Assembly: GCA_903813345.2 (NCBI GenBank)
Contig: CAIIXF020000009.1
Location: 16,705,759 to 16,769,758 of the forward strand
From: Owenia fusiformis
Taxonomy: Eukaryota; Annelida; Polychaeta; Sabellida; Oweniidae
Reading direction: 5' to 3'
Length of the DNA: 64,000 bases
Positions 17,623 to 52,754 of the stretch are shown here, piece after piece. Under the pieces are notes generated by a model that was given only the letters and a program-made list of their open reading frames with translations, was not told where the DNA came from and made no database searches. Position numbers and translations under genes: made by a program. Each line of letters opens with the position of its first letter. Position 1 is the stretch's first letter.

Positions 17623-17865
17623 CTATCTCCCTGGTATGGGGCTTTCTGTTATGTCATACAAGAAATTCTCCATTTTGTGAGGTGTAGTAATGTTAAATGC
17701 TGATGTGATATTTCTGGCTGGGATTGTCCTGTTCTGGAAAGGAGGGGGTGTAGATATGCCAGTAGGAGGTACTACCCTAGCATGGAAGGCATAAATGTCT
17801 GTGGTTAAACACTGGAAGATAATGACGGCACACACAAGGATCAGGAACCACCATTTGTCAGATGT
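17623..17865 (-). CDS. Exon 6 (last) of the TMEM243-like minus-strand gene
   Basis: On the minus strand it follows ATACTTTCAG. It encodes 80 residues: helix 3 (KWWFLILVCAVIIFQCL), then a tail with ARVVPPTGISTPPPFQ and three N-glycosylation sequons, ending PIPGR and TAG. The tail has no counterpart in the plus-strand neighbour, which stops just after helix 3. Confidence 0.8.
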   Translation of the reverse strand, partial: TSDKWWFLILVCAVIIFQCLTTDIYAFHARVVPPTGISTPPPFQNRTIPARNITSAFNITTPHKMENFLYDITESPIPGR

Positions 17866-20800
17866 CTGAAAGTATAAACATAGCATGAAAACCAGTATCC
17901 AAAAAGAGGTGGTTAAATTGGTAAGTCAAAAAGGACATGACACTGAAAATAGTTTTCACAATGTCAGTCTAAAAGCATATATTTTCAGTAATTTTGACGT
18001 GTAACTACATGAATGCCCTTGTCATGTCATTTGTCTCATATATGTAAAATGCTAACTGCCAGTCACCTTCCTATCCAGGCTGAACAACTTAGTACATATT
18101 GAACTAGAGTCCAAAAATCTCAATCAATGTTATATCTGAGGAATTCACTGTTTTTTCTAAAATGTAATCTTGGTTTGTCAAATTTATTTAAAAATAAATA
18201 GTACCATAGGTACTGGGTTCACATGGTGTTGCTCAAAAATGAATGATGGCTAAAAAGGCAGAAAATAAAAATAAATGGATGTAATTTTTGCCAATTTTGT
18301 AACAAAATAATTTCATATGTAACTACTCTTTACAGTGACATGGCTTTTTGCAATGCAGGACAGCTGAAATTATTTGTAAAGCTAGGAAATGGGCCAAAAG
18401 TGAATCTCGCAAGACAAAAATGACGACCATTTTGAAAATAGGCCAGCTTTTGAACCAGGAGTCATGGGGGAGTTTTCTGTATTGATGGTGAACAAAAATA
18501 ACTCAAAACGGAAATCCTATCAACACAGGTTTTAAGGCAAATGGTCCAAAAGTGGATTTCGCGTGAGAGATGGACATATCAATGTTTACTAAAATGGCTG
18601 AAACTAAATAAAACAGATTTAACTTTTTGCCGATTTCTTGTAACAAAATTATTACATACAACTACTCTTTACAGTGACGTGGATTTTTACAATGCAGCAT
18701 ACCTGAAATTTGTTGTAAAGCTAGGAAATGGGCAAAAAGTGGTGACCATTTTGAAAATAGACGAGCGTTTGAACCAGGAGTCATAAGGATCGAGATTTCT
18801 GTATTGATGTTGAACAAAATCAACTTAAAACAGGAATCCTATAAACACAAGTTTATGCAAATGGTCCAATGAATTTCGCGAGACAAAAATGGTGGCCATT
18901 TTGAAAATAGACGAGCTTTTGAACCAGGAGTCATAGGATGGTTTTCTATATTGATGTTGAACAGTGGATTCTAGATATTATTTGTTAGCTTATACATGTA
19001 CAATTAGCTGCCAGTAAAATTTCAAGCAAATCAATGTTACAATACTTTTGAATTTATAATAAAAAGTTATATTTTAACAATTGGCAGCAATTACGGATCT
19101 TTGTGAGATATTGCCGAAACTTGTAGACAAGATTGTTTACCTACATGTATAAAGAAAGGTACATATAAAATTTTAAGCAAATTGATAGAATACTTCCCGG
19201 GGAATACTTGTGGAGTTCTTACCAAAAAAGACCTGAAACCTGATTTTTCAGCAATAAAAATTTCCGCCATTTTGAATCCGCCATTTGAAGTTTTACGTGA
19301 TATTTTGCCAAAGCTTCTATACATTTTTGTTAACCTGGCTGTACAATTTCAACATATCAATTTGATATTTTGGATTTAAACATAAAAAGTGATATTTCAG
19401 CAACAAAAGTAGTGGTGGCCATTTGTGGAGTTAAAACCACAAAAGACCTGAAAACCTTATTATTCTGCCATGAAAATGGCCAGCATTTTAAAATGAGACA
19501 AGCTTTTGAGACGCCACTTATGCACAGGTAGTGATCAAACAGCACTCTCCTGTAAAAATTGCTATTCCGTACATTTCACCACACAACTTATACTTATACT
19601 ATACTATATATTACTTATTAGTAAAACTCTGTAGATTTTGTCAAAATGAAGGCTCTATATTGTCAGTGCATAGACCTAGCAGACTGTGGGTACATACACA
19701 TGGTCATCGCCAGGGGGTCGCGTCGGGTGCGCCTATATCTTCTGGCAATGAATATTCAAGGCATATAAAACCATAAGCATCATCTAATTCATTTGATATA
19801 TTCAACATATTATATTGTTTTATTTAGCAAATAACCCTTTTCAAAATCTTAATTCACAATCAGGGCCAGTAAGGGCCTTTAAAAAGGGGGACCATAATCC
19901 CCCTTTTTTACCTCTTTCAAGGGCTTGGTAAGTAAAGCAAGCAATCGGCTTTTGAAAGAGGTATATTTGGGCTCAAAAATTTTGTATGGCCTTAATTTGT
20001 GGGACTTTTAGGCATAATTACTTGGCCTATTTGGGCCTTATTTATTCATTTTAGTTCAAATTATCCGAAAATATGGATGGGCCTTAAATTTTCAAATTTG
20101 GGCCACACTTGGATTTTAGGGGCTCAAAAATTTTTTCTTACTTGAAATGTGGACCCTGCCCATGATATGTGTAAGACTAACTATTTGTCTTTCATTGACA
20201 TGCTTTGCTTCCCTGGCCCTTTTGATTTTTGCCTCTTACAAAGAAAATTTTGCCTCGTTAATCTGAAAAATTTGCCTCATGCACCCCCCTTGAGAAATCC
20301 TAGCTACGCCATTGTTACATATGAATAGGTTGTTCCTGAGACTGCAAACAAGTTGTCCCCCTGGTGGTTCTCGTTAAGTTGTGTTTATCTTCAAATGGTT
20401 AGGAATATTATACGAGGGAAACCAAGGATATTTTCTTTAGCATTTACAGCAGCTTTTTAATCATATGTGGTATATGGGTGAAGTAATACAAACATGCCAG
20501 TTTATGAGAAAACTAAGATAAACTGACATTAGCCATGGGTAAATAGGGTTGGTAAATACATGTATGTGATTAAACTTACTAAACTTTTGTACCATAATCT
20601 GATCGGATAAAAATTGTAAACTGTGATTTAGATGCAGTTTTATAAACTACCTGTGTGTGATTTGTATCCCAGAGTGCCATTTTTACCTGATCTTGCGGTG
20701 AAATATACCTATAAAAGCATTTTTTATCATAGGAAAGTGCTGTTCGATCCCTACCTGTGTTATGGTGCAATTGAAAACTTTATAGAGACACATTTTAAAA

Positions 20801-23800
20801 GTGAAACCATTTCAATTGTCATGGAGGATTTCAAAGTAATCAGCAATGTGTTAACAGACAGATGAACAGACGGGTGGACAGACTGACAGACGAACAGATG
20901 GACAGATGGATGGACAGACAAGTGAGTGACAACAACAGCGCACGCTATGTGAGCTAATAAAAATATGTTGAATGCCTCTTTGGTGTGCATAGAATGTGGA
21001 GAATTCAATTTCAATCTAGTAGAATATAGCATTGCAAACTTACCAGATCACCGCCTCTGTACCACCAAGACTGAAACATAAGCAATGGACTTCATTTAGT
21101 TAAAAACATCACATTAGATCTATGCTCTATTGGATGGTCAATAAGTTTTGCAAGTGAGCCTCTATTTTTAGTCAACATTTGTTATGAAACTGGGCAGAAT
21201 TTATTGAAGTTCCGTATGTTCAGAAATTTTAAGGGGTTCCTAATTGGAGCCCCATCTTATTTTCAGGAACATATAACTAATTCTATGCCGAGTCTACATG
21301 TTTTAGATTTTCACAAAGAGTGCATTAAACATACCTAAATTATTAGTTGAGGGTTAGTAAATAGATATGTATAACACTAAGGCATTAACATGAAAAAGGA
21401 GAAAATACAGTGACCTACATTTTATGTACTTTAAAAAAGTAGGTCACTGAATTTTCTGAATTATCATACATTATTGAAAATTGTTTACCCTCAACTAATC
21501 ATCTAAGGATGTGTACTCTTTGTGCAAAATTGAAAGATGTAGACCAAGTATAGTACGAGTTATGTCAAGGAGATTGGCTCTCCGGGTTCCAACTCAATAT
21601 TTGATCTTGAGCTTGATTGATGACAACATTGAAAATGTTGTTATTTTCTGACTAGAAATTCATAATCAGCGATCCAAAATATTTGAAATAATATCTTGAT
21701 TACTTCTTGTGTTTTTAATTTTTTGTGTGGAAATAAGACACGTGACCAACCATGACTATATATGCCAGAATATTGAGGTGGAACCTTGGGAGCCAATCCT
21801 CTTTTAGTTACGTATTCCAGAAAATAAGATGGGATGGATGAGGAAGCCATTAAAATTTATAATAAAAACATACAGCATTACCTTTAAGTAATAGTTGACA
21901 AAGTAAAAGGAATATTCCTTGCAAGCCCATTTCTCCCTTGACATGGTAGCTACATATGTATAACCATTTATATACTATCCATATTTAGCCAACTATTTTT
22001 CTCATTCTATCTAAAAGAGCAGATACACTGTATGAACCAAATGTCATGAAAATAAAGTTTGAACATTTCTGATTGTGGGCGCTTATATGTAATTTAGCGA
22101 GGTATTTTGAATTAGAAAAGGTCGTTTCTGAAAGGTATTGTTAAAATCCAAACTGTGTTTTTAGTTGTTTAAATAATCTAAGCTTCCCCTCATTCCCACA
22201 ATAAGATTCTTCCAATATAAAGTTACTTCATACATGAGGGGAAAGTCTACCCACCTATACACAACCTACCGCCGAGTAAATACTAATATATAATACTAAT
22301 ACTGTCAATCCAATGTTTGGTAAACTAACATCTCATTAGAAAATAGACAATAAAGGTAATATCCATCCTTTGGATGGTTAGAATCGTTACTAAGATGTTC
22401 TAGCAGGCGGAATTGGCCTAGAATTATAGTTGAAATATATTTTTTATGTCCAAATTAAGAGATAAGTAAAACGTATAATGGTTTTTGGTTTCTTTTCTCA
22501 GTCATATTCACTTTAATTGATAACGAGCCATACATAAGACATACCTGGGTCGGTAAATGCATGTCATATGCATAATATATTAAGTGTCAAACTATTAGGT
22601 CAAAATAGCACTTTTGAATAGAGCTGGCATCGAATAGGATTTTAATGTCGACATGTCGGAGCTCTTGATCAACAACGATATCGACATTGTCGGGTCCAAT
22701 GATATTCGAAAAATGAAAAAAAATTTGAAGAAAATCCGTCTGAATTTTAGATTTTCTAGGCTTGTAATTAGAAATACGATGCACAATAGTCACCCTCAGT
22801 TGTATGTTTTATATCTACCTTACAGGTAAACCATGTTCAAGTATCAGACTTTGACGAAAAAGCAATAAATAGACATAAAACTACGATTTCTGTTGTTATT
22901 TCCGGGCAGCCATTGAAAATAAATCTCGAGGGTAAATCTCGAGGGGCCCGAGACCTAATTTGAGAGCAGGAAGTCGATCAAAACAAAAAAGAAAATTTGA
23001 AAATGTAGGCGGAAAAACTTCACTAAAATACACCATACAGCAGGTAGTAACAAAGATTTTAATTCATAGGGAAATAGCTTATTATGTTGTGAGTTCCGAC
23101 TGTCGATCAAGAGGCGTTGTGTCGACATGGGTGTCGCAGAGAGCATTCGACTGACAATTGACCATCCCGACATTTGATGCCAGCTCTACTTTTGAACAGC
23201 AAAATCTTCACATAAACTTTGTCCTAAAAGATCCGATGTTATCGGACATCGGACCCGATGTGATCGATGAGTAATATTATAAAGATCCAAAAATATCTTG
23301 AGTAAAGATCTCAAAATCCGAACATTACTTGAGTTTAATCTGTTTAGATCCAATGATATTGTTGAGTTAATGATGTGCTGATGATGAAATAGTGTTAGGG
23401 TTACATTTGGGAGTTTTCGAACCTTGATTTAATTGTCTTTATTAGAAGAGTTACTCGTTATTAATACTATTGTAACATTTTGACCCAGAATGACACAACA
23501 GAAATTAGGCTATCAACACTGGAGGATAGGAATAGCGCGAAATTGCATTTAAATCAATTATTATCCATATATATGGATAAAAATGAATATGTTTCACGTT
23601 CCTAATCTCGACTGATCAACCTTTTTTCATTTTAGTACCCATTCTACTGATATCTTATCTTATTCAAAATTGAGAGCGAATGAGCATAACGGGTCTTTTA
23701 ACTTTGCACATTTTAGACCAATCAAATATTATAACTAGAAAATCAGCAACTCCACGGAGTAGCAAATCCCACCGAACAAAACATATTTAGATTATTAGTG

Positions 23801-29800: not shown

Positions 29801-32800
29801 TTTTATAAAACATGCCTGCTCTTTTGGTATACATGTGTAACACATGGTTTGTCTGTGTGATCTTAAATACATGTACTTCTAAGAATGAAGTGTCCAATCT
29901 TTTATTGCCTACCCTGTAGACACTTGTAAAATTTATTTCTCATCATCAATAATCTATTATTACCATAATCAATATCACTATATAAGCTTTGTATCATAGT
30001 ACTGATAATGGCCGACTGGTAAGATTCCTTTTTAAACTCAAGGTATAGGGTAAGGAACTTTTTTAATTGTTACTTAATATATTTACTAGGAAAATATGAG
30101 AAATAAAACTTACAATGACTACTCCAACAAATGTGCTGACTGAAAAATAAAATATAATGCGTTTAATAGCAAGAGCAGAATAGAAATCAATTAAACACAT
30201 TATGATCATAATTACATGATTCATAACGATGAACATTCAATACAAGTATGAGTAATGTTTAATTAGAATCTGTGCCTAAAAATAGGAAACTTTCGCTTTT
30301 AAGTAGTTTTATTTGCTTGCGTATTGACTGTATTCTCACAGGCTCAGTCTTCACTTTGTAGAATTGACCGATGGGAGCTGATCGAGTGAAGGAAAATGTT
30401 TGAATTATGCAGGTCAGTGCTGCATATACTTATAATACATAATAATGAAAGATAGGTAAATCTTTTCTCAGATGAGTAGATGTTACAACAATTAAATTGA
30501 AAAGTTATTAAAATTCATTTCATCTTCAACTGCTTAAATTCCTAAATCATTAGTTTTATACAACATATGCATCAATAATTAGCACAAAAACAACGTTTTT
30601 ACTCATGAAAATGTTCATTTTTAATAAATAAATAATAAATAATAAATAAATGCCAGTAGTTAGTTACCAGATTTATCACCAGGTGGTTAAATCAAGCTAT
30701 ATAACATTGCAACCATACAAAAAGTTAGGTTGAAGGGGCAACAAGGACTGTAGAGAGAAAATTCGAACATAAATTGGGGCCTGGTGCTGCATAGTGCATA
30801 CCATAGGCCCTGGAACATGTATAAAATAATTGAGTCAAATATACCAAGTAAAAAGTCCCCGGGACTGACATAATTCCAACAAGAACACAAATGTGTACAA
30901 AATGTCCACACCAATGGGTGATCCAGTCAAATGGTTATTCTGAAAATGAGTAGACAAGACTTTACCGACACAATTTGAGGACGGAAAATCCAAAATGGCC
31001 ACCTTAAAATTTACCCTGAGTGCCAAAAAATTAGTCAGTTCAAGATTTTCATACTAAGAACTAGTCCTGAAAACGCGTAGATACATTGTAAGACTTTACA
31101 GACAAGATTTTAGGATGGAAAATTCAAAATGGCTGCCTTGACATTTACCCAGAATGCCAAAAAACTTATGGGGATGACAGAAGTCCATGTGTCATGTTGA
31201 GCCAAATCTCTTTCAATCTTTTACTGATCCCAAACTCTAAATTATCAATGATCTAAAATGGGGTTGATGAAACTTGAAATTCAGTTCTTAGCAACATATC
31301 TCTACACATCACATCAACTAGACATCATCAGACGCCAGCAGCAGCTAAAATCAACATAGGAAGAACGCCCCTTACCCTCAGCCAACGCAGGCAGGTTGGA
31401 GACCTTAATACATCTTTCAAGATGTTACAACAAAGTCTAGCAACCAAGTATGGAGTCGGCTTTGGAACAGTCAATCAATGCCCAAATATATACAAATATA
31501 GTGCTTATTCGGCAACTTTGAGTTTGCTGAAAGTGCGGCCCCTCTTTATAGGGAAAACCTCTGAACAAGGAAACTTTCCTTCAGTCCCAAGAGCATTCCC
31601 TGTTCACAGGTTTTACTGTATATACTGTACTCCCAGTTAATTTCGCGAGTTTTAATTTTGCGAATTTTTAGAAATCGCAATTTCGTGGCTATTTAATTTC
31701 GCGGTTTTCACAAGTTCAAATTTCATTATTCTCTGAATCATCAAATTTTGTAAACTAAGTTACCTTTTATACCGTAGTTACATCCAATCCAGTGTAATAT
31801 TTTGATAAAATTCATAATTACTAAATCTTGGACAATGGCATGCTGTACCCCGTTATCTATTACAGGGATTTAATTTGCAAATTTCGCTACGATTATCTTT
31901 CACGATTATACTGCGCGCAATCACAAAAACCATGAAACTAAATTTCACGCAAAAATACCGGGAGTACAGTAAAACATTAAAGACTTGAAATGAAGAGGTT
32001 ATATGTGCTAAATATGCAGTCATAATAGTCAAGTAATTGCCTCTGGCCACTATACCAAAGGGTTAAGGATCGACCATTCTGAACATTGTGTTAATGTGCA
32101 AGCTCGTTCAAAATTGGTGCACATTTTCATTATAACCATGAGCACTATATATAAAAACAAAAGCCATGAATAAACACTTACTGATTAGATTACAGGCTAA
32201 TAGGTAGTTTGTGTGGTTCTCTGATCCCTTCACCAGGCAGAAGACAAAAGCCAACTGAAAATAAATTTTACCACAATTATTGTCAATTTGGATGTCTTTG
32301 ATATTCATTATATATATAATATATATATATAAAACGAGTATATGTGCAATAATTTTCTTTTTCCACTTCAAGCATTATTTTACCTGGTAATATGCATGCA
32401 TGATGGGAATAGCATGTAAGCTGTAAAAACAAAAATGTTATGTCAGATTACATCACCAATTTCAAATTGTAGTGGTAAAGATGAGCCAAAATGACTAAAG
32501 TTGACTTTATCTGACCAGCTTAGCTGTGATATAGAATAGCTGAGCTCATATACATAGCCATTTCTCTTCATACATTACATAACCATTCGAGGGGGCATAA
32601 AAAATGGGTCATACTTCAGCATCTGATATCTCCCTGACCCTCTTACCTCTTCTAAAAACTTGCACATGTGAAACTGGTTATCTCCCTAATACACACTACC
32701 CTACCTCAATCGCGCTTGCGCAAGATTTTTGGCTTTCAACCAGGTTGCTTTTGAGTATATCAGTTTCGCTGGTTTTATACAAAAACCAATTCTTAGATAG

Positions 32801-41800: not shown

Positions 41801-44800
41801 CCTCTCCATTATGGGACGGCGTTAATGAAAGCACAGTGAAGATAATGAATGGATCTAAGATACACCCATGTTCATGATCAGAAAATATTAATAGTTCAAG
41901 TTAGAATCATTTGAAATTGTTTGCAATAACCTACGTGCTCCTTTTAGCCTGATATTCCAAGGTATGAAAACATCATCATGATGCTTACAACCAGATGGAG
42001 TTAACAGACACATCCAAGCAATACTTGACTCTTACTACTCATAAAGGTCTGTTCATGCAAAATAGACTATGGTATCATTTCTGCCCCAACTATCCTTTAG
42101 ATTGATTGTGTTCTGTCATGCTTGAATGAATATGGCTTAAAATGTAAGAAATCGAAATGTGAGTTCATGAAAAGCTCAATATCTTACCTCGAACATGTCA
42201 TTAATAAACATGGGGTCCACAAATCGGAAAAGAAAGTGGAATACTCCAAGTTAGTCAGCCAAATGATGTCACTAGTCTCCATACCTCGGTAAATTGAATT
42301 ATTACCCTAGTTTCATACCAGACTTAGCATCTGTGATTGCCCCTTTCAATGTGCTATTAGAGAAAAAGAGGTTTGAGTGGAATCAGAGTGCCAATGATGT
42401 TTTTGAAAAATCCAAGAGAAAACTCATTCAGTCAGACATCCAGTCAATTTAACGTTCCACATATCATTTACATGACCAGGATCACAATCTACATGGTCAG
42501 AATGACCTTAAACATGATGAAATAAATTTTTCAGCCCTCTGAAAATGTGACTGAAAAATTGTTAAAATTTGGAGCTAAGGAAAGGTCACTGAATAGAATC
42601 TTTTGAAGTTTTCAGAAAATGTGCCCAATATATTGCTCTAAATGATACATGGACTAAAATAGGTGAGTTTTCATTGATATAGGATATATTGATACACTGT
42701 TTTAAATTTTACAATTCAAGGATCATTTGCGACAGATCATCTGTATATTTTGGTAACTTGTTGGTGATACCATAATGTTACTCAGTATAACTTTTCCAAA
42801 CATTCTGTTCATCCATTGCTGAGAAAATAGTCAAAAAGCCGCTCTTTTTTGAGACAGTAATCTTCTTACAATTTAAAAACACGAACTACTCACCAAAACC
42901 ATTATTAAAGTGACACCTCCAAATAATCTGTAAAACGTCACCTGGAAAAAAAGAGAATTTCATGGCGAATTTTGGAATGCACATATAAAGTAGAGTTACT
43001 AACTTTATCCTACCAATACTTATATAGTCTGTTAAAGGCATATTGTAACATACAGCCGACAAAATGGTTCAAAAAGATTTTTTAGGCTTGGAGTCAATTT
43101 CATGCTTTAAAACCTTCTCTGATGATTCTATTTTTGAACTATGCATGCAGGTCCATCCAAAGTCTACCCTTTGCATTCGTTTGACTTCACTTCTTAAAAG
43201 AGAGCTTCGTCTTCACTCTTTCAAACTAAAATAAACCTATGAACTCACCGCGCCAATCAGTGTTCGTCGGCCAATTTTGACCGACGTTCTTTATATGGTC
43301 ATTCATTCTGACATCATCGTTGAGTCCGGAATTGACCAATGACATGCGCATAATTAATTAGAACGCATTTGGCGTATGTTTCTTCAAGCTCACTGAGTGG
43401 TGGAAGGTCAGCGCGTAGGTCAAAAGTGATTTACCCAAACTGTCACTGGTACCCGTCGTGGGGGCGGGGCTACTAAACTGTAATATGGTCTCTACTAGGC
43501 AGAGTGTAGTTTAACTAGACTCTGAACGCAGGGTATCCAAAGTCGTCTATTAAACATTGAAAAGTCATATTTAGACCGAGGATTGAAAGGTGTTCACGAC
43601 AACTTTTAGCTCATCTGTATTACAACAGACCGGAAGTGAATTTTCCAGTTGAGTAAATGGTGATAATGTTGTTTTTATGAACCGGTGAAGTCAAAACATT
43701 ACAAATAAAAATCATTGTAGGCATTTGTAGATCATTAAGAAGCATTTAAAATCGAATCCATGGCAAAATCTGAAATAATTTAAATATTCCTAACGGATGT
43801 CAGAGAAAACACTTCCGTTTTAATAATCACTGTTAATTGCGTCAGTAAAAGCTAAAAGAAATCAAAATATCATTTTGCAATAATATATGGAAAAATATAT
43901 TCCTATTGTACATGAATGATATTTGTATATCTTGGATTGCTTCTAGTTTGGCTTATAAAGTGTTTGGCCTCTTATATTTGGATGCTTTGCTGCCATGTTA
44001 CATGTATTTTCAATAAGATTAACATGGCTGAAATTCTTCAAATTACAAGATGGCACAGGCTTATTGCACAAAAAATAAAAAATCTTAAATATACAAATAT
44101 CAATCATGTACAAATCATGTACATTATGAATATACCTTTCCATATATTATTGCACAATGGTCTCCCAATTTCTTATTTTTTCGAGGTCTCCTCTGTCGAA
44201 GGCAGCGCGAAGTAGGAGCGTAGCGACTACTTTGCGGGAGACCTCGAACCATTGATCACGTTTGCTCCTGTAATTATTCACTTCTTCACCTCTTTAAAAT
44301 GTGATTTCAAACAGTTGATCAAATTTTCGGACTTTGACATCAAATTCAAATATTAATATTTATAAAAAAAAATACTGACTCATTATTATATTTTTAAAAG
44401 TCTTTCAAATAAAGTGAAATGAAGCCAAAATCAGCTAAAATTATGCAATGTCGTAAAATGGCGTGACTGGAATATGATGCAATCAACTGTGACGTCAGCC
44501 ACGTATTGCCACATCAACAGCTAAACAAACAATTAATATAGACTTCACTGATTGGTTTAAAGATTCTTCGCATCATTTGTGACGTCATAAACATGTTACC
44601 CAACCAACAACTAAACAAATAACAAAAAGGAATATAGGTTCGTTCAGTGCCACGCTCTTCATGCTCTTGAATCACAATCTCCAAGCCTTTCGCCCAGTGC
44701 AATCAGTACCTCCTGTGCCTCAGGTAGTGAAGGTACGCAACGAACGAAATTAATTTTGAGAATGCTTGAATCAATTATAATTAGAGGTTATGTCACTATC

Positions 44801-45456
44801 GTGGCATATATGCCCGAGGTCTCAGTGATATATGGCCCGACCTTGGGAGGGACATTGATCTCTGAGAACCGAGGGCATATGTGCCACGATAGTGACATAA
44901 ACGATTTATAACATACCTATGATGATGTAGACTTGTCAGAGAGTACCGTTTTCTTATAGAATTGACAAACAAATGGTTTGAAAATGATTGAAATGAGTTT
45001 AGAAAAATTGCTCGCGCAGTTTTATCTTCGACTGATTGGTTATGACGTCAGCGCCTTGACCAATCAGAAAGTTAGCGGGCGCGGGCTTTTCAAAACTTAT
45101 ATTGGCCCGCTGTCTTGTGTACACTTTGCACTATACATCATCATAGGTATGTTATAAACAGGGATAATCAACAGATATATGAGAGGGTCAAGCATTTTTT
45201 TGACTTGGAGACCTCGACTCGAGGAGTTTGCTGCATTTTCTTGTTTGCCGTGACGCAATGAAACAGTGAAATGGACTCTAATTTAGAGAACCTCGGGCCA
45301 TGGCCTGAACATATTCCACGGGTTTTCAACTATAAACAATGATTACAGTATATTTAATTTATTCAAATGCACGACACTTACTATATTTGGAGACACATCA
45401 TAGTACAAAGCAGATGTATTAGGAGAACTTGCAGTACTTGTAATTTTATCCGCCAT
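17623..45456 (-). CDS. TMEM243-like multi-pass membrane protein (divergent paralogue), six exons
   Basis: Exons on the minus strand are 45456-45382, 42941-42894, 32254-32182, 30139-30114, 21070-21044 and 17865-17623. Together they give 163 residues. Three hydrophobic segments lie at about 28-49, 58-76 and 88-107. Residues 76-83 (WWYRGGDL) match the TMEM243 family signature between helices 2 and 3. The N-terminus starts MADKITSTASS; exon 2 (VTFYRLFGGVTLIMVL) equals in length and phase exon 2 of the neighbouring plus-strand gene. The core is normal for the family, but a Pro/Thr/Asn-rich tail of about 56 residues follows helix 3. Sequons N54-H-T, N128-R-T, N135-I-T and N141-I-T would all lie on one membrane face if the N-terminus is cytosolic. 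Molecular function of the family is not well established. Exon choice rests on splice signals plus phase; assignment as a paralogue is inference. Confidence 0.75.
18380..18970. repeat. Tandem repeat of about 150-300 bp units in intron 5 of the minus gene
   Basis: Three units share TTTTGAAAATAGACGAGC, TTTTGAACCAGGAGTCAT and TATTGATGTTGAACAAA (near 18430, 18745 and 18896). Two of them also share CTACTCTTTACAGTGAC. Confidence 0.55.
19000..21043. other. Repeat-rich first part of intron 5 region, no exon supported
   Basis: The stretch is mixed AT-rich DNA with GCCATTTTGAA blocks (19250-19500), a GGGCC/AAAATTT patch (19860-20150), and a tandem tetranucleotide-type run of GACAGACGAACAGATGGACA near 20855-20925. 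No open frame with splice sites is convincing. Confidence 0.4.
21044..21070 (-). CDS. Exon 5 (27-nt microexon) of the TMEM243-like minus-strand gene
   Basis: On the minus strand: acceptor TTATGTTTCAG, nine codons SWWYRGGDL, donor GTAAGT. Both ends are phase 0. The peptide is the most conserved signature of the family, which makes a chance match unlikely despite the short length. Confidence 0.8.
21071..22610. other. Part of intron 4 of the minus gene
   Basis: A diverged inverted repeat is visible: GGAGCCCCATCTTATTTTC (about 21247-21265) and CAGAAAATAAGATGGGATGG (about 21820), with related blocks between, including AAATTCAGTGACCTAC-type segments near 21405-21460. This is probably a decayed foldback element. 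No exon is supported. Confidence 0.4.
22611..23196. mobile_element. hAT-like MITE with 8-bp target duplication
   Basis: The element proper is 22619-23188 (570 bp). Its ends are TAGAGCTGGCATC and the exact complement GATGCCAGCTCTA. It is flanked by CTTTTGAA at 22611-22618 and 23189-23196. Eight-base duplications and TAGAG ends fit the hAT superfamily. There is no transposase; the interior has GTCGACATGTCGGAGC and similar CpG-containing blocks. Confidence 0.85.
23395..23720. repeat. Dispersed repeat family copy 2 (5'-part)
   Basis: TTTGGGAGTTTTCGAACCT, TTTTGACCCAGAATGACACA, CAACACTGGAGGATAGGAAT and AACTTTGCACATTTTAGACC follow the order seen at 8100-8440 and 50680-50960. The copy is cut by the next element at about 23735; its continuation (TTGGTAGATACAAAATAACA) resumes at about 25104. 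Confidence 0.6.
23735..25085 (+). mobile_element. ATGGGATAA-ended family, copy 3, inserted into a copy of another repeat
   Basis: It begins near AACTCCACGGAGTAGCAAAT and CCCACCGAAC and ends GACGGACGGACAGACG...CTTCGTTCGGTGGGATAA. CCCACCGAAC against GTTCGGTGGG gives inverted ends. The host repeat (7990-8770 family) continues on both sides, proving a later insertion. The interior is a tandem array (23800-24950). Confidence 0.75.
23800..24950 (+). repeat. Tandem array of about nine units, spacing about 145-150 bp in its regular part
   Basis: The landmark GGCCATCTTGAAAATTC recurs near 23801, 24160, 24300, 24445, 24595, 24742 and 24885, with weaker copies near 23940 and 24040. Each unit also has TGTGTCCCTAGGCATCA, TATAAAATTTGAACCAAATC, GGTATTTGAGTTATCAAAG and an ATGGC-GCCAT palindrome. 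Confidence 0.8.
25757..26002 (-). CDS. Small hypothetical reading frame or transposon fragment
   Basis: The minus strand encodes 81 residues with unusually protein-like composition for this region, for example MSGELTLEDKANIEKNANEL (from residue 29), AITVKKKLIKRYHTGESLPA and a C-terminus QPTAEQRPEDV. No family was recognised and no splice links were found. It could be a relic of a transposon ORF or an internal gene in intron 4 of the minus-strand gene. Confidence 0.3.
   Translation of the reverse strand: MSKTFDITNNTFTWHKQLRNILCHIKIKMSGELTLEDKANIEKNANELAITVKKKLIKRYHTGESLPAYIQPTAEQRPEDV
26392..27388 (+). mobile_element. ATGGGATAA-ended family, copy 4
   Basis: It starts ATGGCAACGCCAAAGCGTAG, CGAATCCCATCGAAC and ends CCTCCGAACTTCGTTCGATG, GGATAATC. 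The ends TCCCATCGAAC and GTTCGATGGGA are exact inverted repeats of 11 bp. Before the right end is a GGACAGACGG/GGATGGACAG tract (27277-27345). The interior holds four to five units of about 135-150 bp with CTACTACCCAAAGTGTCATT, TGTGCCATGCTTA and AATATGAACAAAATCGCTC. Confidence 0.75.
27405..28385. other. Intron 4 DNA with no recognised feature
   Basis: The stretch is AT-rich and has no exon or defined element. Short TATTTATAATTT-type repeats occur at 28140-28200. CATCTCAACCCTTAGTCAAC at about 28000 is an outlying unit of the array that follows. Confidence 0.35.
28386..28535 (+). repeat. GTCAACTCAACCC minisatellite, forward array
   Basis: About ten imperfect units of 13-16 bp (GTCAACTCAACCCCAA, GTCAACTCAACCCTTA, GTCAAGTCAACTCTTA). 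An isolated set lies at 27990-28025, and a reverse-complement array lies at 29570-29675. Confidence 0.8.
29570..29675 (-). repeat. GTCAACTCAACCC minisatellite, inverted array
   Basis: Units read GGGTTGAGTTGACTAG and GGGTTGAGATGACTTG, the complement of the 28386-28535 array. The two arrays form an inverted pair 1.0 kb apart. The right end abuts the coding part of a LINE reverse-transcriptase relic. Confidence 0.75.
29676..29900 (-). pseudogene. LINE reverse transcriptase fragment
   Basis: The minus strand encodes TYDLVLFDTSKEGMQLKLNT followed by LQSFCNDWKLEMNIDKT. This matches the non-LTR reverse transcriptase region just after the catalytic Y-x-DD box, here degraded to YDLVLF, with the LN.LQ.FC..W.L..N..KT motif of CR1/RTE/Jockey-type elements. 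Only about 70 residues remain and both ends are cut. Confidence 0.75.
30114..30139 (-). CDS. Exon 4 (26-nt microexon) of the TMEM243-like minus-strand gene
   Basis: On the minus strand: acceptor TTATTTTTCAG, then TC AGC ACA TTT GTT GGA, GTA GTC ATT, donor GTAAGT. It enters in phase 1 from exon 3, completing an Ile codon, and leaves in phase 0, encoding ISTFVGVVI in helix 2. Confidence 0.75.
31260..31620 (+). pseudogene. Pogo/Tigger-type transposon relic, DNA-binding domain fragment
   Basis: In one frame around 31340-31470 the translation reads RTPLTLSQRRQVGDL, then LQQSLATKYGVGFGTVNQ. This is the pattern of a CENP-B/pogo helix-turn-helix (R..LTL.Q...I.DL......Q..LA.K.GVS..TV..). The downstream CCTCTGAACAAGGAAACTTT and GGTTTTACTGTATA resemble Tigger-type ends. 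The rest of the transposase is missing. Confidence 0.5.
31625..31969. mobile_element. 345-bp MITE with TA target duplication
   Basis: The left end is CTGTACTCCCAGTTAATTTC and the right end is the complement of CTGTACTCCCGGTATTTTTG. It is flanked by TA at 31623-31624 and 31970-31971. Inverted similarity continues around TTTCGCGAG and AATTTCACG. It is Tc1/mariner-like and non-coding, and sits directly against the pogo-type relic on its left. Confidence 0.8.
32182..32254 (-). CDS. Exon 3 of the TMEM243-like minus-strand gene
   Basis: On the minus strand: acceptor TTTATTTTCAG, 24 codons LAFVFCLVKGSENHTNYLLA, CNLI, plus one base, donor GTAAGTG. Direct joining to exon 2 (phase 0) aligns MVL-LAFVF with MVL-ISIGL in the plus-strand neighbour. 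It holds the end of helix 1, the sequon N-H-T and the start of helix 2. Confidence 0.8.
32430..33180. other. Intron 2 DNA of the minus gene
   Basis: No feature is supported. The sequence is AT-rich and without clear inverted or tandem structure. Confidence 0.35.
33180..33487. mobile_element. hAT-like MITE with 7-8 bp target duplication
   Basis: The element is about 33188-33479. It begins CAGGCCTGTCAAG and ends CAGTTGACAGACCTG, whose complement is CAGGTCTGTCAACTG. GTATACT is duplicated at 33181-33187 and 33480-33486. The interior holds GCGTGACAT blocks in both orientations. It has no coding capacity. Confidence 0.75.
33992..35431. mobile_element. Element with AGACTCCAGAT ends carrying a composite satellite
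   Basis: AGACTCCAGAT occurs at 33992-34002 and its complement ATCTGGAGTCT at 35421-35431; another copy of the terminus at 35405-35415 makes the right end a hairpin. Between are the GGATAGGAT/GAGTCATCCAGAATAAGC arrays, then about 500 bp with AACTTTTGAACCGGAAGTCG. No ORF is credible. Confidence 0.6.
34013..34916. repeat. Composite satellite: 19-bp GAGTCATCCAGAATAAGCC units and GGATAGGA microsatellite
   Basis: Units of GAGTCATCCAGAATAAGCC form blocks at 34019-34135, 34286-34316, 34527-34622 and 34878-34910. Between them are runs of GGATAGGAT/GGAAGGATA (34150-34270, 34390-34510, 34640-34865) and one run in the opposite orientation (CCTATCCTTC, 34322-34395). The long minus-strand reading frames here (repeats of Ser-Tyr-Pro-Ile-Leu) come from the microsatellite and are not genes. 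Confidence 0.85.
35432..36212. other. Intron 2 DNA, includes a repeat shared with 62265-62520
   Basis: The segment 35560-35830 (CCCATGTAAACCAATAGGAA, then AATAACACAGATGG, then AAGCTCTGTA) is a diverged copy of the central part of the 62115-62770 foldback. Otherwise nothing is recognised. Confidence 0.45.
36213..37025. mobile_element. Element with TTACCC inverted ends and a GAACG-rich interior
   Basis: The left end is TTACCCTCTATCACACCAAA and the right end TTTGGTGTGATAGGGGGGTA, followed by A. The interior contains dozens of GAACG/CGTTC steps (for example GTACTACGAACGGAACC) and is far richer in CpG than its surroundings. A second head (TATCACACCAAACAAGTTGC) begins near 36609, so it looks like two tandem copies of one unit. 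No open frame longer than chance was seen. Confidence 0.7.
37026..38770. other. Intron 2 DNA upstream of the gypsy relic
   Basis: It may contain decayed 5' parts of the gypsy element, but no gag or protease motif could be read. A short frame at 37500-37742 (MSDVRERYFLFANGHAFCSN...) is not recognisable. Confidence 0.3.
38825..38996. repeat. Perfect 86-bp tandem duplication
   Basis: Copies 38825-38910 and 38911-38996 are identical as read. Each contains 26 bp of gypsy flank, the TTAA site, and the first 56 bp of the MITE. The duplication is therefore younger than the MITE insertion. Confidence 0.92.
38851..39456. mobile_element. TTAA-flanked MITE
   Basis: AGAGATCGGGTC after TTAA (38851-38854) is mirrored by GACTCGATCTCT before TTAA (39453-39456). 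TTAA duplication suggests piggyBac or Kolobok-type mobilisation. The same left end (TTAAAGAGATCATGTCTCCT) occurs at 46865. Non-coding; 598 bp including the internal tandem duplication. Confidence 0.75.
39986..40046. repeat. Hairpin inside the 2.06 kb insertion
   Basis: AACAAATCATCTGATTG and CAATCAGATGATTTGTT form a near-perfect stem of about 20 bp around a loop containing CAGTAAATCCAGCG. Confidence 0.75.
40449..41944. mobile_element. Foldback element, second copy of the 57005-57682 family
   Basis: The left end AAAGGAGCACTTAGGTTATC and right end AATAACCTACGTGCTCCTTT are inverted. Its interior (40610-41040) is the reverse complement of 57120-57560, for example CATCCAAATTCAGTATCTTT against the complementary AAAGACACTGAATTTGGATG. 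A further segment (about 41050-41880) with a TGCGCATGCGCA palindrome at 41443-41454 is an extra insertion relative to the other copy. Confidence 0.65.
42461..42893. other. Intron 2 DNA between the gypsy relic and exon 2 of the minus gene
   Basis: Nothing coding on either strand could be supported. Confidence 0.35.
42894..42941 (-). CDS. Exon 2 of the TMEM243-like minus-strand gene
   Basis: On the minus strand: acceptor TTTTTTTCCAG, 16 codons VTFYRLFGGVTLIMVL, donor GTGAGT. It is 48 nt with both ends phase 0, exactly like exon 2 of TMEM243 at 50452-50499 (KRLQYAFVGIVVIMVL). The shared F-x-G-x-x-x-IMVL supports common descent. Confidence 0.82.
42942..44780. other. Intron 1 DNA of the minus gene
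   Basis: No exon is supported. A short inverted motif GAGGTCTCC...GGAGACCTC lies at 44184-44246 and flanks a CpG-rich patch (GCGCGAAGTAGGAGCGTAGC). Confidence 0.4.
44788..44901. repeat. Long hairpin
   Basis: GTTATGTCACTATCGTGGCA with TATATGCCCGAGG is mirrored by CCGAGGGCATATGTGCCACG with ATAGTGACATAAAC, a stem of about 35 bp with few mismatches around a loop of about 40 nt. It lies in intron 1 of the minus-strand gene. Confidence 0.75.
44907..45160. mobile_element. Short element with 23-24 bp inverted ends
   Basis: TTATAACATACCTATGATGA (from about 44907) and its complement TCATCATAGGTATGTTATAA (ending about 45159) bound about 250 bp. The interior has CTGATTGGTTATGACGTCAG and GCGGGCGCGGGC, CpG-rich and promoter-like, including a TGACGTCA CRE-type site. 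It abuts the hairpin at 44788-44901. Confidence 0.6.
45382..45456 (-). CDS. Exon 1 (coding start) of the TMEM243-like minus-strand gene
   Basis: ATG at 45456-45454 on the minus strand opens 25 codons (MADKITSTASSPNTSALYYD, VSPNI) to a GTAAGTG donor in phase 0. The context CAAAATGGCGG is a good initiation context and also a YY1-type core. The SP near the exon end matches the SP at the end of exon 1 of the plus-strand gene. Confidence 0.78.
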
Positions 45457-46098: not shown

Positions 46099-46194
46099 AT
46101 GGAAAAGGAAACCAAAAGATTAATTGAAAGTCGTCCTGCGCCCGATTCAACGTCTGCTCCTCTGTTCCATGATAGCAGTCAGTCTCCAACTGCA
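46099..46194 (+). CDS. TMEM243: Exon 1 of TMEM243
   Basis: ATG in the context ACAAAAAAATGG is followed by 32 codons, MEKETKRLIESRPAPDSTSA to PLFHDSSQSPTA, and a GTAAGG donor at 46195. The upstream transcript start is not defined. Confidence 0.75.
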
Positions 46195-49100
46195 GTAAGG
46201 CGTTCAATATAATCAATTTAGGCCCATGACATGAGGTCAATAGCTCGGAGAAGTGAATATTGAAATTGGCTAATCATTTTACTTCCGGGTTGATCATATT
46301 TGGACTCTTACTTTATTTGCACAAAGTCATTAATCTTTAAATCAGAGGCCAAGGGAAAAGTAGTAGTAAGCTGTATCATGGGCCTATGCTTTAAATAGTA
46401 TGTACAGTCTCAGATACAGTCCTTGAAGGGTTCAATTTTAAAGATTTTTAAATCTCAAAATAGCTCTAATTATTAACATTTCTACAATTCCGGCTTTATT
46501 TAATGACTAGACGGATGACAGATCCATAAATAAAGGCATATGGGTGCATTATAATGTGTAATGACCCGAGGGCGCCCCAGGGAAATAACTAACTAACGAC
46601 CGCGAGCATAGGTCCAACAAGCCAGATAAAGAAATTGAAGAAAGTGTGCTAAATTCGAAGTTTATCTTGTCTTCTTACATGTAAGTCTCCTTCTCTAACA
46701 GAAGTGAATCAAATGTTAGGCATTGAACTTTATTAATAGATATGACAAAACATTTTTTGCTGACTGACAATATTACATTATGATTTGAAATACCGAGCCA
46801 CATGTACATCAAACCATTGGAAAGCTTGTTTAGTGTTCTTTAATCTCATTCATAACAACATTGAATTAAAGAGATCATGTCTCCTAAAAACACAATTAAA
46901 GTAACCCCGTATATATGTAGGGTTTGCAGGCCCCTAGCCAGGATTTCCGAAGGGGGGTTTACTTTTTAAAAAATTCCAGGGGGTTCACTTGTGACAATTT
47001 TGGTCCAAAAATGGCCAAAAGCACTTAAAAAGTGCTCAGAATTGTAAAAATGATTTTGAAAGATATTTTGTCCAAGGGGGGGGGGGGGTTCGCTAAACCC
47101 ATTGAACCCCCCCCCCTGGCTACGGGCCTAGTTTGATATCAGTTCTTAGGTTCTACTTGCAACTAGGTGGTTTTTTTCTATAAAATCATGCATACAATTA
47201 GATAAAATACAATTATAGAAATTTCAAGTAACATTACATCTTTCTGATCATTATTTCATTATCAAAAATAGCTTTTAAATTACTAGCTGTATTGACCCTT
47301 TTTTAAAATCATGTATAGCTTTTTTAATTACCAATGTTTTAAGTAAATCTTTTTTAACAATTGCATTTTCAATTTTTTGATCATTTGTAACATTTACATC
47401 ATTCCAAATTGATTTAATACAGTCACAATTGATAAAGAAGTGGTCAATGTCATCTTTTACATGTGCGTTACAAAAGTTACAGATGTCAGAGTTTTCTATG
47501 TTACATTTCTTCAAATAAATATTTTGAGGGTAAATACCATGTAAAATTTTCCATTGAATTACCAAAAGGGTAGTATCGGTTGTACATTCAAAAAATTGAG
47601 ACCAGACTTTATCGTTTAGAATCTCACCATTAAATTTTATGTCACACTTTCTCTCTTAAACAATTTTTGTTCTCACATTTCTTGAGTTTAAAAGATGGCT
47701 CTCAATGCCTTTAAAAAATAATTTTGTACAAGGTGTTTCCATTTCATATTTGATAAGGAGTTCTTGTGTTAAACATGCTTTAAGTGCATTATATTGAAGA
47801 ATTGTTTGGCCATTTCTCCCTATTTTCTGGACAATGTTATCATATGCTAACATTTCCCTATCCTGAACAACATCTGAAATATATGTAATGCCCTTTTCAA
47901 TCCACCATGTTGAAATGGACCATGGCCATACCATGGTATACCATGGTATGGCCATGGTATACCATGGTATATGGCCATGAAATGCAATGAAATACCATGG
48001 TATTATCATGGCCAATCATGATCGTTAAATGGCACCATTACATTTCATGGTTAACAGCGTGTTTTTAACATGGAGTTTTCCATTGAAAAAATACTGCCGA
48101 TTCGCAGTATTTCGTGGTCAGAAACCATCAAATGCAATGATATCATGGTCAAGTTCTCGGCCATGATATCATTGCATTTGATGGTTTCTTGACCATGATA
48201 TCATTGCATTTGATGGTTTCTGACCATGAAATACTGTGAAACGGCAGTATTTTTTCAATGGGAAACTCCATGTTAAAAAAGTGCTCCCGACCATGAAATG
48301 CAATGGTGCCATTTAACGATCATGATATACCATGGTATACCATGGTCAATTAACATGTAATTTTGTATCTAAAAAATACCACCGATTCACAGTATTACAT
48401 GGTCAAATACCATCAAATGCAGTGATATCATGGTCTAGACATTCAACCATGATATGCAGTGGAGCCATTTAATTACCATGATCTACCATGGTATACCATG
48501 GTCACTATTACTTAAAATTTTGCATTTAAAAATACTGTTATTTTGCAGTATTTCATGGTTGCAGACCATCAAATGCAATGATGGATGCAATCCATCAAAT
48601 GCAATGAAGTACAGTCAAGATGTTTAATCGAAGACTGGAGGTTGGACTTACAAAATATTAAGTTTATTTCCTATTTTACTGACAAAAGTCAAATAAAAGT
48701 AAAGCATATTTATTTACCAAAAAAATTTTGTTTCTAGGGTTATTAACTTAATTGTTCATCATAGAAATTAATTTATTAAATAAATGAACAAAAGTATATA
48801 AGGTTGTGATTTTGATGAATATCAGAATCACTAATTATAATAATTTGGTTATCTAATTAACATTTATTAATAAAGATATTTCATGTAAAAATACTTTTTG
48901 AACATGGTCTTTCATTGTATTTCACTGCATTGCAAGAAAGACCATTGCATTTCATTGCATATCATGATCAATCATTGCATTTCATGGTTAAATGTGGTAT
49001 TTCAATGCATTTCATGATCCATTTCAACTCTGACCAATTTTAGACTTGACACTCTTCTTAGAGTTCTTTTTAGCAATGAAATACCATGGTATTTGATGGT

Positions 49101-52100
49101 CAGGTTTGACAATGAAATGCTATGAAATACAATCAACCACGAAATGCAATGATATGCCATGATAAATGATAGTTATGATTTTGGCAATGAAATACCATGG
49201 TATGACCATAGTATTTGATGGTCAGGTTTGACAATAAAATGCCATGAAATACCACCAACCATGAAATGCAATGATAAAACCATGATAAATGAGAGTTATA
49301 ATTTTGGCAATGAAATGACATGGTATGACCATGGTTATTGATTGTCACACGGTACAATGAAATGCCATGAAATGTCATCAACCATGATATACCATGGTAA
49401 TACCATGGTAAATGATGGTCAGGTACATAACAATAAAATACCATGGTATGACCATGGGATTTGATTGTCACATCGTACAATGAAATACCATCAACCATGA
49501 TATACAATGGTAATACCATGGTAAATGATGGTCAGGAACATGGCAATGAAATACCATGGTATGACCATGGTATTTGATTGTCACATCTTATAATGAAATG
49601 CCACCAACCATGATATACCATGGTAAATTATAGTCAGGAACATGGCATTGAAATACCATGGTATTTGATTGTCACACCTTACAATGAAATGCCATGAAAT
49701 GCAATCAACCATGATATACCATGGTAATACCATGGTAAATGATGGTCAGGAACATGGCAATGAAATACCATGATAATACCATGGCATTTGATGGTTAACT
49801 TTGAACATGAAATACCATGAAACATGGTATAACATAATATACAATGGTATACCATGGTCAAAAATTGACCAAAAAACATCATTGCCACCATGGTCAGAGT
49901 TGATGGTAATTTCATGGCCAATCATGATAGACCATGGTAAACCATGGTATACCATGGTATCATGGTTTACGTTTAAACATGGCAGTTTTCAAAAAATAAT
50001 GGAGAATTATTGAGAGTTACATTTTCATTGTTCCAAATAATGCTCTCATTTTTAAAATCATTGTGTTTTAACCATACATGTAATACATTTTTAAAAAAAT
50101 TACTTGATATTGTTCCTAGTTTGTACCTAGTTGTACCTTTAATTCTATCAAAATCTATGTTTGAATTAAAAATACTGAGTCCATTACCCATTTTTCCATA
50201 CATGTACATGAGTAAGCCTCTCCAGTGACCATTGCCTCTTTCTTGCATTTTTTTAACCCATTGTGTTGTATAAGCTATTTGTAAATCTTTAGCATTTATC
50301 ATTTTTAACCCTCCATATTTATATTCTTGTACCATTACATCCCTTTTCACTTTGTCAGGAATCTTTTTCAATTCATCCTCTTTAAATCTGCCTTTTGCCC
50401 AAATAAATTTAAACAACTAGGTATAACTATTGTCCTTTGGTTTGTTTTCAGAAGCGGTTACAGTATGCCTTTGTAGGAATAGTAGTGATCATGGTCCTTG
50501 TAAGTACTGATATATTGGTTGTCACAAATTCTTTGTGTAAGATAAGTATGCTTTCCCAGTAAAGCCAGAAGCACTCGTTGGCATAAGCTGCTCCCTCAAA
50601 ACCTAGGTTTGCCGTTATCCAGATCCACCTTTGCAAAAATGTAAATGGTTTATAATTAGAGTCGTTCATGTTATTTTAGGGAGTTTTCCTCGTTATTAAT
50701 ACTATATTGTAAGATTTTGACCCAGACTGACACAACAGAAATTGTCAACACTGGAGGATGGTAATAGCGCGGAATTGTATTTAATCAAATATTATTCATA
50801 TTCATAGAATAAAAATAAATATGTTTCACGTTCCTAATCTCTACTGGTCAATCTTACTTTGCTTTTGTAGCCGTTGTACTGATATATTATCTTAGTCGAA
50901 ATAGAGAATGAATGAGTATAATGGGTCTTCTAGCTTTGCACATTTTAGGCCAATCAAAATACATTACTATTTTTGATACGATTAACGCCTTGTAACACAT
51001 ATGTAATTCTATGTAATTCTAATTAAACAAATTTTTATATTTCTTTGCCTCATCACTTATCTCGTTTGGAATGGCCTTAATCCCTGGTGCACCTTGGTCC
51101 GCGAAACGAACATTTAAATAAGGGATTCAGGGGTGGATCTGGGAACCAACAAGGGGGGGGGGCAAATTTCAGGTCAGAGAAAAAAACGTCTGGGCCCCTA
51201 AAACCCAAAAGTCTGGGCCCCTTAAACCCAAAAGTTGGCCCAAATTTAGAAATTTTGAGGCCCATTCTTCAAAATTTGGCCTGAAATTAAAAAATAAGGC
51301 CTTAAAAGGCCCAGTAATGATCAAAAAATTTTTTGGACCCAATTTTCCTTTTCTGGGGCCCCCCCCCCACCCCCCCACCCCCCCTAATGCGCCAGTGGGA
51401 TTAGCACACCCGGGTGTGAGTGTAAACCTCCTGTTCACTGTCAATAAATTATGAATATAACACAGACGATTGCCCTCTGGTGTTTACATTTACCACTGAC
51501 TTACCATCTGTACAAGGTTTTAGCCTCCATATTGATCCATCTTTTTAAAAGGGTCAATAACACCAGCTATAAGAAGATACGGACCCTGTTAGACTTGGAC
51601 TATTTATCCGGCGTAAGATCTCCAGCGATATAAGTGCTAGGGCAATCGTGAAAGTTTATTTTATTAGAAAAAAAATTTGGGCCCCTAGAACCCAAAAGTG
51701 GGCCCAAATTTTGAAATTTTGAGGCCCATTTTCTTCAAAATTTGGCCTGAAATTAAAAAATAAGGCCTTAAAAGGCCCAGTAATGATAAAAAAGCCCACT
51801 TTTTGGGGCCAATTTTTTTTTGTGGGCCCACCCAAGGGGGAGCCTTCCAAGGTCGGCCTATACTAGTATAACCTCTTACTAGCACAATTGAATATGTGGT
51901 TACATTGGGAATATTTGATTTTCAAATGTTTTAATTATTGAGAGTGCTTAATATGCTTGTATTTTTTCAGATAAGCATTGGTCTGAGTATATACAGGGGA
52001 GCTGTGACTGGAGTCAATAATGGTCTCTACTTTATGCTGGGCATAAGTCTTATAGGATTTGTTGTCATAGAAATATTTCTTGTAAGTATAAAAGTTGATG

Positions 52101-52397
52101 ACTGGTCATGCTGGGTATACTTGTAAGTTTTATAGTATTTTTTGTCATAGAAATATTTCTTGTAAGTATAAAAGTGTACAGTATGGTTAATGAGAACTCA
52201 TGATTTTGATTAGGTTCATGACAAATGAACATTTTAGATATTCTATATTTATAAATGATTTCTTATATGTTTTCCAGATCCGGTTTATAAGAAATGAAGA
52301 TCTTCCTAAAGAAAAGTCCTGGTTCTTATACTTTGTTGGAGCATGTGTTATATTAGAAGCTATCTTTACAAATGTTCTACTATTTGATGAGAATTGA
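46099..52397 (+). CDS. TMEM243: TMEM243 (DUF2678) three-helix membrane protein, four exons
   Basis: Exons 46099-46194, 50452-50499, 51971-52081 and 52278-52397 join in phase 0 throughout and encode 124 residues, close to the roughly 118 of vertebrate TMEM243. The N-terminus (MEKETKRLIESRPAPD) is hydrophilic, and APLFHDSSQSPTAKR resembles the PLF...A-K-R region of the family. Hydrophobic segments lie at about 37-56, 67-87 and 100-119. RFIRNEDLPKEKSW between helices 2 and 3 corresponds to the family WYRQGDL region. It ends LLFDEN shortly after helix 3. I recognise it from memory of the family, not from a search. The family is a small multi-pass membrane protein of unclear molecular function. 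Intron 1 contains a LINE fragment with a large palindromic satellite. Confidence 0.78.
46195..47200. other. 5' part of TMEM243 intron 1
   Basis: At 46863-46910 lies a lone left end of the TTAA-MITE family (TTAAAGAGATCATGTCTCCT, AAAAACACA) whose right end is not visible. At 46930-47130 is a GGGGGGTT/AACCCCCC inverted pair (CCCTAGCCAGGATTTCCG against CTGGCTACGGGCCTAG), a small foldback with G and C homopolymers. Confidence 0.45.
47240..50420 (-). pseudogene. LINE (L1/Tx1-like) ORF2 C-terminal region, interrupted by a 2-kb satellite
   Basis: On the minus strand from 50416: FKFIWAKGRFKEDELKKIPD, MVQEYKYGGLKMINAKDLQI and AYTTQWVKKM, the end of the reverse transcriptase/thumb region of L1-type LINEs (FIW...GGL...W...). 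After the satellite it resumes with TWWIEKGITYISDVVQDREM (about 47915-47860) and then MVIQWKILHGIYPQNIYLKK, CNFCNAHVKDDIDHFFINCD (47565-47430), the terminal Cys/His box region. There is at least one frameshift near 47646. Its 5' truncation point lies about 30 bp upstream of TMEM243 exon 2. Confidence 0.85.
47915..49982. repeat. CCATGG-rich palindromic satellite inside the LINE
   Basis: About 2 kb is built from ACCATGGTATACCATGG, CATGAAATGCAATGATA, GGCAATGAAATACCATGG and TGATGGTCAGG modules in both orientations. In 49080-49800 a higher-order unit of roughly 110-120 bp repeats about six times. Two inverted modules at 48060-48300 carry AAATACTGCCGATTCGCAGT type stems. An internal gap (48640-48900) is ordinary AT-rich DNA. 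The minus-strand frames here (repeats of His-Gly-Ile-Ser-Trp) are by-products. Confidence 0.9.
50452..50499 (+). CDS. TMEM243: Exon 2 of TMEM243
   Basis: After TTTGTTTTCAG at 50451, 16 codons KRLQYAFVGIVVIMVL, then GTAAGT. Both ends are phase 0. It begins helix 1. Confidence 0.8.
50545..51455. repeat. Dispersed repeat family copy 3, in TMEM243 intron 2
   Basis: It follows 7990-8770 in order: CCTAGGTTTGCCGTTATCC, TTTTGACCCAGACTGACACA, CTTTGCACATTTTAGGCC, TTGGTCCGCGAAACGAACAT and CACACCCGGGTGTGAGTGTA. It is interrupted at about 51130-51385 by the GGGCCC-type segment listed next. Confidence 0.65.
51171..51858. repeat. Direct pair of GGGCCC/AAATTTTG repeats
   Basis: Copy 1 at about 51171-51370 and copy 2 at about 51663-51858 share GGGCCCCTANAACCCAAAAG, CCCAAATTTNGAAATTTTG, GAGGCCCATTNTTC, AAAATTTGGCCTGAAATTAA and AAAAAATAAGGCC. 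A short relative with GGGCC motifs occurs at 19980-20150. Confidence 0.7.
51971..52081 (+). CDS. TMEM243: Exon 3 of TMEM243
   Basis: After ATTTTTTCAG at 51970, 37 codons from ISIGLSIYRGAVTGVNN to FMLGISLIGFVVIEIFL, then GTAAGT. It ends helix 1, forms the first loop and most of helix 2. The corresponding part of the paralogue is divided into exons 3 and 4. Confidence 0.82.
52049..52175 (+). repeat. Tandem copy of exon 3's 3' end and donor site
   Basis: GTTGTCATAGAAATATTTCT followed by TGTAAGTATAAAAGT at the exon 3 boundary (52061-52095) is repeated as TTTGTCATAGAAATATTTCT, TGTAAGTATAAAAGT at about 52140-52175, 79-80 bp downstream, preceded by a related CTTNTAG context. The copy supplies a second GTAAGT donor. 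Confidence 0.8.
52278..52397 (+). CDS. TMEM243: Exon 4 (last) of TMEM243
   Basis: After GTTTTCCAG at 52277, 39 codons (IRFIRNEDLPKEKSWFLYFV, GACVILEAIFTNVLLFDEN) and TGA. An ATTAAA at 52449-52454 is a possible polyadenylation signal. Confidence 0.82.
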   Translation: MRFIRNEDLPKEKSWFLYFVGACVILEAIFTNVLLFDEN

Positions 52398-52754
52398 TTG
52401 ACTCTGTGAAATTGAGAGAAGGAAACAATGGATACTCTGTTAATACATATTAAACACTATGGATTTATATTCTTGTAAATACGTATATATTTCAGTTGAA
52501 AATAGAATGTGTATATCATGTTATGTATATTTTTGGAAATTATTTTAACTATACTTATAGTGTTAAAAACATTTTGGTGTGCCATTGTACAAGCAAATGG
52601 ATAATACCAAGAGCATAACTCTTAAAATATATGGATAAAGATATGTATGTTCTTCTTATTCATTAAGTTACATTGTTAATGTAACTATACATGTTGGCAC
52701 TGTAATGCTGCCTTTAGACATTTGATACAGTCTTTCCCTAGATACTATAACACT

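Follow-up and report, generated by a model that had tools for sequence, protein, structure and literature searches.

TMEM243, which also carries the aliases C7orf23 and MM-TRAG, appears as a paclitaxel-resistance gene in a section of PMC12841848 and is counted, in an extract of PMC6390002, among several sea cucumber genes under positive selection; neither passage mentions paralogues. Head-to-head paralogues as such are already known: an excerpt of PMC12141075 describes the collagen IV pairs COL4A1/COL4A2, COL4A3/COL4A4 and COL4A5/COL4A6 as paralogues in this arrangement whose products assemble together, and a bidirectional promoter for collagen IV appears in reference titles quoted there. Paralogues of TMEM243 in invertebrates, or a duplication of the gene, were not found in the open-access literature, nor was any paralogous head-to-head pair described there as sharing a bidirectional promoter after an inverted duplication; these searches are consistent with an earlier interpretation made from the DNA alone (hereafter the sequence-only reading), which had called a head-to-head TMEM243 pair undescribed.

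The window, i.e., the whole stretch of DNA that we analysed, comprises 64,000 nucleotides from the polychaete Owenia fusiformis (contig CAIIXF020000009.1, positions 16,705,759 to 16,769,758). It holds two small membrane-protein genes placed head to head and, as judged from their rebuilt sequences, the pair is confirmed as two diverged TMEM243-like genes. The minus-strand gene has 6 exons and encodes 163 aa, the plus-strand gene has 4 exons and encodes 124 aa; both reading frames are open and free of internal stops, GT/AG is present at every intron, and all exon joins are in frame (Table 1). These rebuilt models agree with the sequence-only reading in counting ten exons and in their outer limits (17623-52397). 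The predicted start codons flank 45457-46098, as expected from its divergent starts 642 bp apart, and its further observations hold as well: exon 2 counts 48 nt with phase 0 at both ends in either gene, the motif F-x-G-x-x-x-IMVL is common to the two proteins, and both contain a three-helix core. WYR-GDL, to which it had seen a corresponding loop in both, is literal in the minus protein (WYRGGDL) and is reduced in the plus protein, which has RFIRNEDL, to R-x-x-DL. A 52-bp segment that takes in the donor of plus exon 3 and the last part of this exon (52044-52095) is repeated with 94% identity at 52124-52175, 80 bp downstream; since the repeat includes the donor, the intron that follows contains a second donor-like site.

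Table 1. Predicted exons of the two TMEM243-like genes and the gap between them (window coordinates).
Feature	Coordinates	Strand	Remarks
Minus gene exon 1	45382..45456	-	Start codon; 25 aa; ends in phase 0
Minus gene exon 2	42894..42941	-	48 nt; phase 0/0
Minus gene exon 3a	32182..32254	-	73 nt; phase 0 to 1; picked by eye
Minus gene exon 3b	30114..30139	-	26 nt; phase 1 to 0; from the short-partner scan
Minus gene exon 4	21044..21070	-	27 nt; SWWYRGGDL; phase 0/0
Minus gene exon 5	17623..17865	-	Third hydrophobic helix; tail of 52 aa bearing three N-glycosylation motifs; stop codon
Plus gene exon 1	46099..46194	+	Start codon; 32 aa; ends in phase 0
Plus gene exon 2	50452..50499	+	48 nt; phase 0/0
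Plus gene exon 3	51971..52081	+	111 nt; phase 0/0
Plus gene exon 4	52278..52397	+	Stop codon
Gap between predicted start codons	45457..46098		642 bp; candidate shared promoter

The family that we take to be that of TMEM243, PF10856, is named DUF2678 in Pfam, where its function is listed as unknown; its curated cut-off is 27.8 bits and its profile length 118. A minus protein of four exons, lacking exons 3a and 3b, reaches 18.9 bits against this profile and slightly more, 20.1 bits, against EamA. For a single phase-0 exon 3 the minus gene offered no candidate under strict rules; looser rules gave 14 one-piece candidates, all rejected as unsuited in unchanged form, one of which (32123-32254) contained exon 3a but with the wrong donor. 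In the model, exon 3 is instead divided into 3a and 3b by a phase-1 intron. Exon 3a is a hydrophobic stretch with a good phase-1 donor that we selected by eye for its family look, and exon 3b, 26 nt long and with strong sites, is the better of 2 short phase-1 candidates between exons 3a and 4; 19 stretches pass the same scan on both strands of the window, and only exon 3b reaches its score. Adding the two exons raises the PF10856 score from 18.9 to 28.0 bits, a rise that is partly circular because exon 3a was chosen for its resemblance to the family, and lowers that of EamA from 20.1 to 11.0 bits, upon which an EamA identity of the minus protein was dropped.

The complete minus protein passes the PF10856 cut-off narrowly, by 0.2 bits (28.0 bits, E 2.3e-6, profile positions 31-114 of 118). 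The plus protein remains below it at 17.8 bits (E 0.0034), with a match that runs along the whole protein and takes up positions 18-115 of the 118 in the profile; PF10856 is the top family among the 7 listed for this protein, with DUF805 near at 16.2 bits. In 10 shuffled versions that keep the hydrophobic pattern (5 per protein) there was no PF10856 match at E up to 10. The sequence-only reading had named the lack of a PF10856 match to the minus protein as its refutation; a match exists, if only just above the cut-off. Its wider claim that both genes are diverged relatives of PF10856 type is supported; in view of its score we term the plus gene TMEM243-like, as a relative and not a filed member of the family.

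An orthodox gene of the family lies on another contig of the same genome (C5:39444848-39447882), which makes the window genes extra copies. It has four exons encoding 117 aa, the first three each ending in phase 0, and its exon 2-4 part, with boundaries read by hand, scores 132 bits to PF10856; its exon 2 is 51 nt long and not 48 (17 codons versus 16 in the minus and 16 in the plus gene). A search of the genome with PF10856 returned six places, none of them in the window: two above the cut-off, both on C5, and four further weak ones of 15.3-18.6 bits. The window genes were missed by this profile search because their single exons are too weak. With the orthodox protein as query we recovered the four exons of the orthodox gene and, at a different site, a weak match of 17.6 bits, while the plus protein, and the minus protein taken without exons 1, 3a and 3b, each found only their own exons in the genome. 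Further diverged copies could escape detection in the same manner, since the orthodox query missed the window genes. In viral contigs, 106 stretches fit a search pattern and none encodes a relative.

The best sign of common descent is the matching of intron places, for which the comparison was confined to the orthodox copy in this genome: all three genes are interrupted in phase 0 at three corresponding points, two of which follow exon 1 and exon 2 while the third precedes the loop. Following the last of these, the final core exon begins IYWYRQGDL in the orthodox gene, SWWYRGGDL in the minus gene and IRFIRNEDL in the plus gene. Two additional introns interrupt the minus gene, one within exon 3 and the other after GDL. 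In pairwise local alignments, for which the minus protein was cut at residue 112 and 2000 shuffles of each type were made, the scores were 110 for minus-plus, 74 for orthodox-plus and 65 for orthodox-minus. Under shuffles keeping the hydrophobic pattern the respective z values were 13.3, 7.0 and 6.7, and none of the 2000 reached any of the three scores; under shuffles in windows of ten they were 8.5, 5.1 and 5.2, the scores being reached by 0, 1 and 2 of the 2000. Protein identity across the three is 17-32%, varying with the pair and the alignment. The Pfam match, the corresponding intron places and the scores relative to shuffles speak against a chance likeness, and a common descent of the three genes is well supported.

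The descent of the two window genes from each other is a finer matter. A set of 86 columns without gaps, taken from exons 2-4 and so excluding exon 1 and the minus tail, has 18 identities for orthodox-minus, 19 for orthodox-plus and 23 for minus-plus. When this set is bootstrapped 5000 times, minus-plus is the closest pair in a fraction of 0.76 by BLOSUM62 and of 0.67 by identity. Since the minus and plus proteins are more similar to one another than to the orthodox protein, the two genes are likely a sister pair born by inverted duplication. The interval 42500-52500 contains 10 inverted pairs of at least 40 nt, and in no case does one arm fall in the minus gene and the other in the plus gene, so no trace of a duplication is left in the DNA of this interval. 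The head-to-head arrangement of the sequence-only reading is supported; its inverted duplication stands as a likely event. An unlikely alternative, though one to be taken seriously, is that the two genes derived separately from TMEM243 and became adjacent by rearrangement without being sisters. It would fit the modest bootstrap values, the lack of inverted pairs spanning both genes, and the unequal number of introns (5 versus 3), but it sits poorly with a minus-plus score exceeding that of either against the orthodox protein, and with a 48-nt exon 2 and an IMVL motif that, among the three genes, are confined to these two.

The two first exons are the least certain of the ten. We compared 46 plus-strand and 47 minus-strand candidates by similarity, and the chosen pair are mutual best matches, scoring 24 where the next candidates reach 21 (plus) and 20 (minus); this evidence is partly circular because each first exon was scored against the other. 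Against the orthodox exon 1, plus exon 1 scores 18, level with two other candidates, and minus exon 1 scores 16 and is beaten by at least one candidate at 18. The figure of 642 bp depends on these exons and falls if either is wrong; the genes would even then stay divergent, their second exons lying at 42941 and 50452. The gap shows a moderately raised CpG observed/expected ratio, 0.94 against a window mean of 0.55. As 87 of 634 sliding windows are equally high, this lends weak support to the shared promoter of the sequence-only reading, for which the gap is a candidate.

Several features of the surrounding sequence deserve mention. Within plus intron 1, an open frame on the minus strand (47275-47565) matches zf-RVT with 32.9 bits and is a remain of a reverse-transcriptase element. 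The same intron includes a long stretch, at about 47930-49980, that by eye is rich in CCATGG-type words and contains 8 of the 10 inverted pairs of 42500-52500. An open frame at 15924-16475 (+) matches the DUF4817 helix-turn-helix family with 30.9 bits and perhaps is what remains of a transposon, and another at 63459-63824 (+), of 121 aa, matches none of the Pfam families at E values of 0.1 or below.

Strong divergence, the open frame with the zf-RVT match in plus intron 1, and the tandem copy of the 52-bp segment at 52044-52095 might be taken to indicate that one of the genes, or each of them, is decaying or is not transcribed. We hold this to be very unlikely, given ten exons that are all open, in frame and bordered by GT/AG sites, including those of merely 26 and 27 nt. 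A similarly improbable reading, in which the minus gene alone is related to TMEM243 and the plus gene encodes an unrelated small three-helix membrane protein head to head with it by chance, can point to the 17.8 bits of the plus protein versus a 27.8-bit cut-off and to its want of a literal WYR-GDL, but is opposed by a minus-plus alignment that outscores both other pairs (z 13.3 and 8.5, reached by 0 of 2000 shuffles each), by phase-0 introns matching those of the orthodox gene, and by a 48-nt exon 2 matching that of the minus gene.

We now consider how the products of the pair may work. The orthodox, minus and plus proteins each have three separate 19-mers with a mean hydropathy of 1.3 or more. 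According to the positive-inside rule, basic loops of membrane proteins face the cytosol; applied to these proteins, the rule suggests a cytosolic location for the basic segment that joins helix 2 to helix 3, which in turn would place both the loop that joins helix 1 to helix 2 and the C-terminus on the outer or luminal side. In the predicted topology the chain thus begins in the cytosol, which the WYR/R-x-x-DL loop also faces, and ends on the opposite side of the membrane. The minus protein carries five N-glycosylation motifs, four of them (residues 54, 128, 135 and 141) on the predicted outer or luminal side and one (residue 13) on the predicted cytosolic side; the orthodox and plus proteins carry none. 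Three or more motifs in the 52-aa minus tail arise in 1.05% of 20000 shuffles of that tail. In our view, the minus product would be a TMEM243-like protein to which a displayed, glycosylated tail was added.

In the reading that we favour, and which we consider probable without being confident of all its parts, the locus is a working pair of diverged TMEM243 paralogues that arose by inverted duplication, is transcribed from the gap, and serves one complex. A duplication in inverted orientation would have yielded the two diverged paralogues, both of which would be transcribed outward from the 642-bp gap; each would encode a small three-helix membrane protein resembling orthodox TMEM243, and the minus product would display its glycosylated C-terminal tail outside the cell or in the lumen. 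Co-expressed, the two would then act as subunits of one small membrane complex, the plus product being the plain and the minus product the tailed subunit. That the two products form a complex is our conjecture.

TMEM243 is little studied, and extra, diverged copies would reveal which residues its fold needs; adjacent diverged copies, moreover, provide a pair whose co-expression can be tested. A bolder and rather improbable proposal regards TMEM243 as the plain one in an older family of three genes, of which many invertebrates keep the head-to-head pair as obligate partners in a single membrane complex, one subunit bearing a glycosylated outer tail; if true, it would give a first handle on the role of TMEM243.

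Compared with TMEM243, including the orthodox copy on C5, the window genes share three hydrophobic helices, three matching phase-0 introns, and an R-x-x-DL loop. The minus gene differs from it by two more introns and by the 52-aa tail with its three N-glycosylation motifs, the plus gene by having no literal WYR-GDL (WYRQGDL in the orthodox protein) and by its score below the Pfam cut-off. The likeness to the collagen IV pairs is one of arrangement, paralogues standing head to head in both cases, and no sequence relation is suggested; joint assembly of the products is published for collagen IV, and for the pair in the window it is what we infer.
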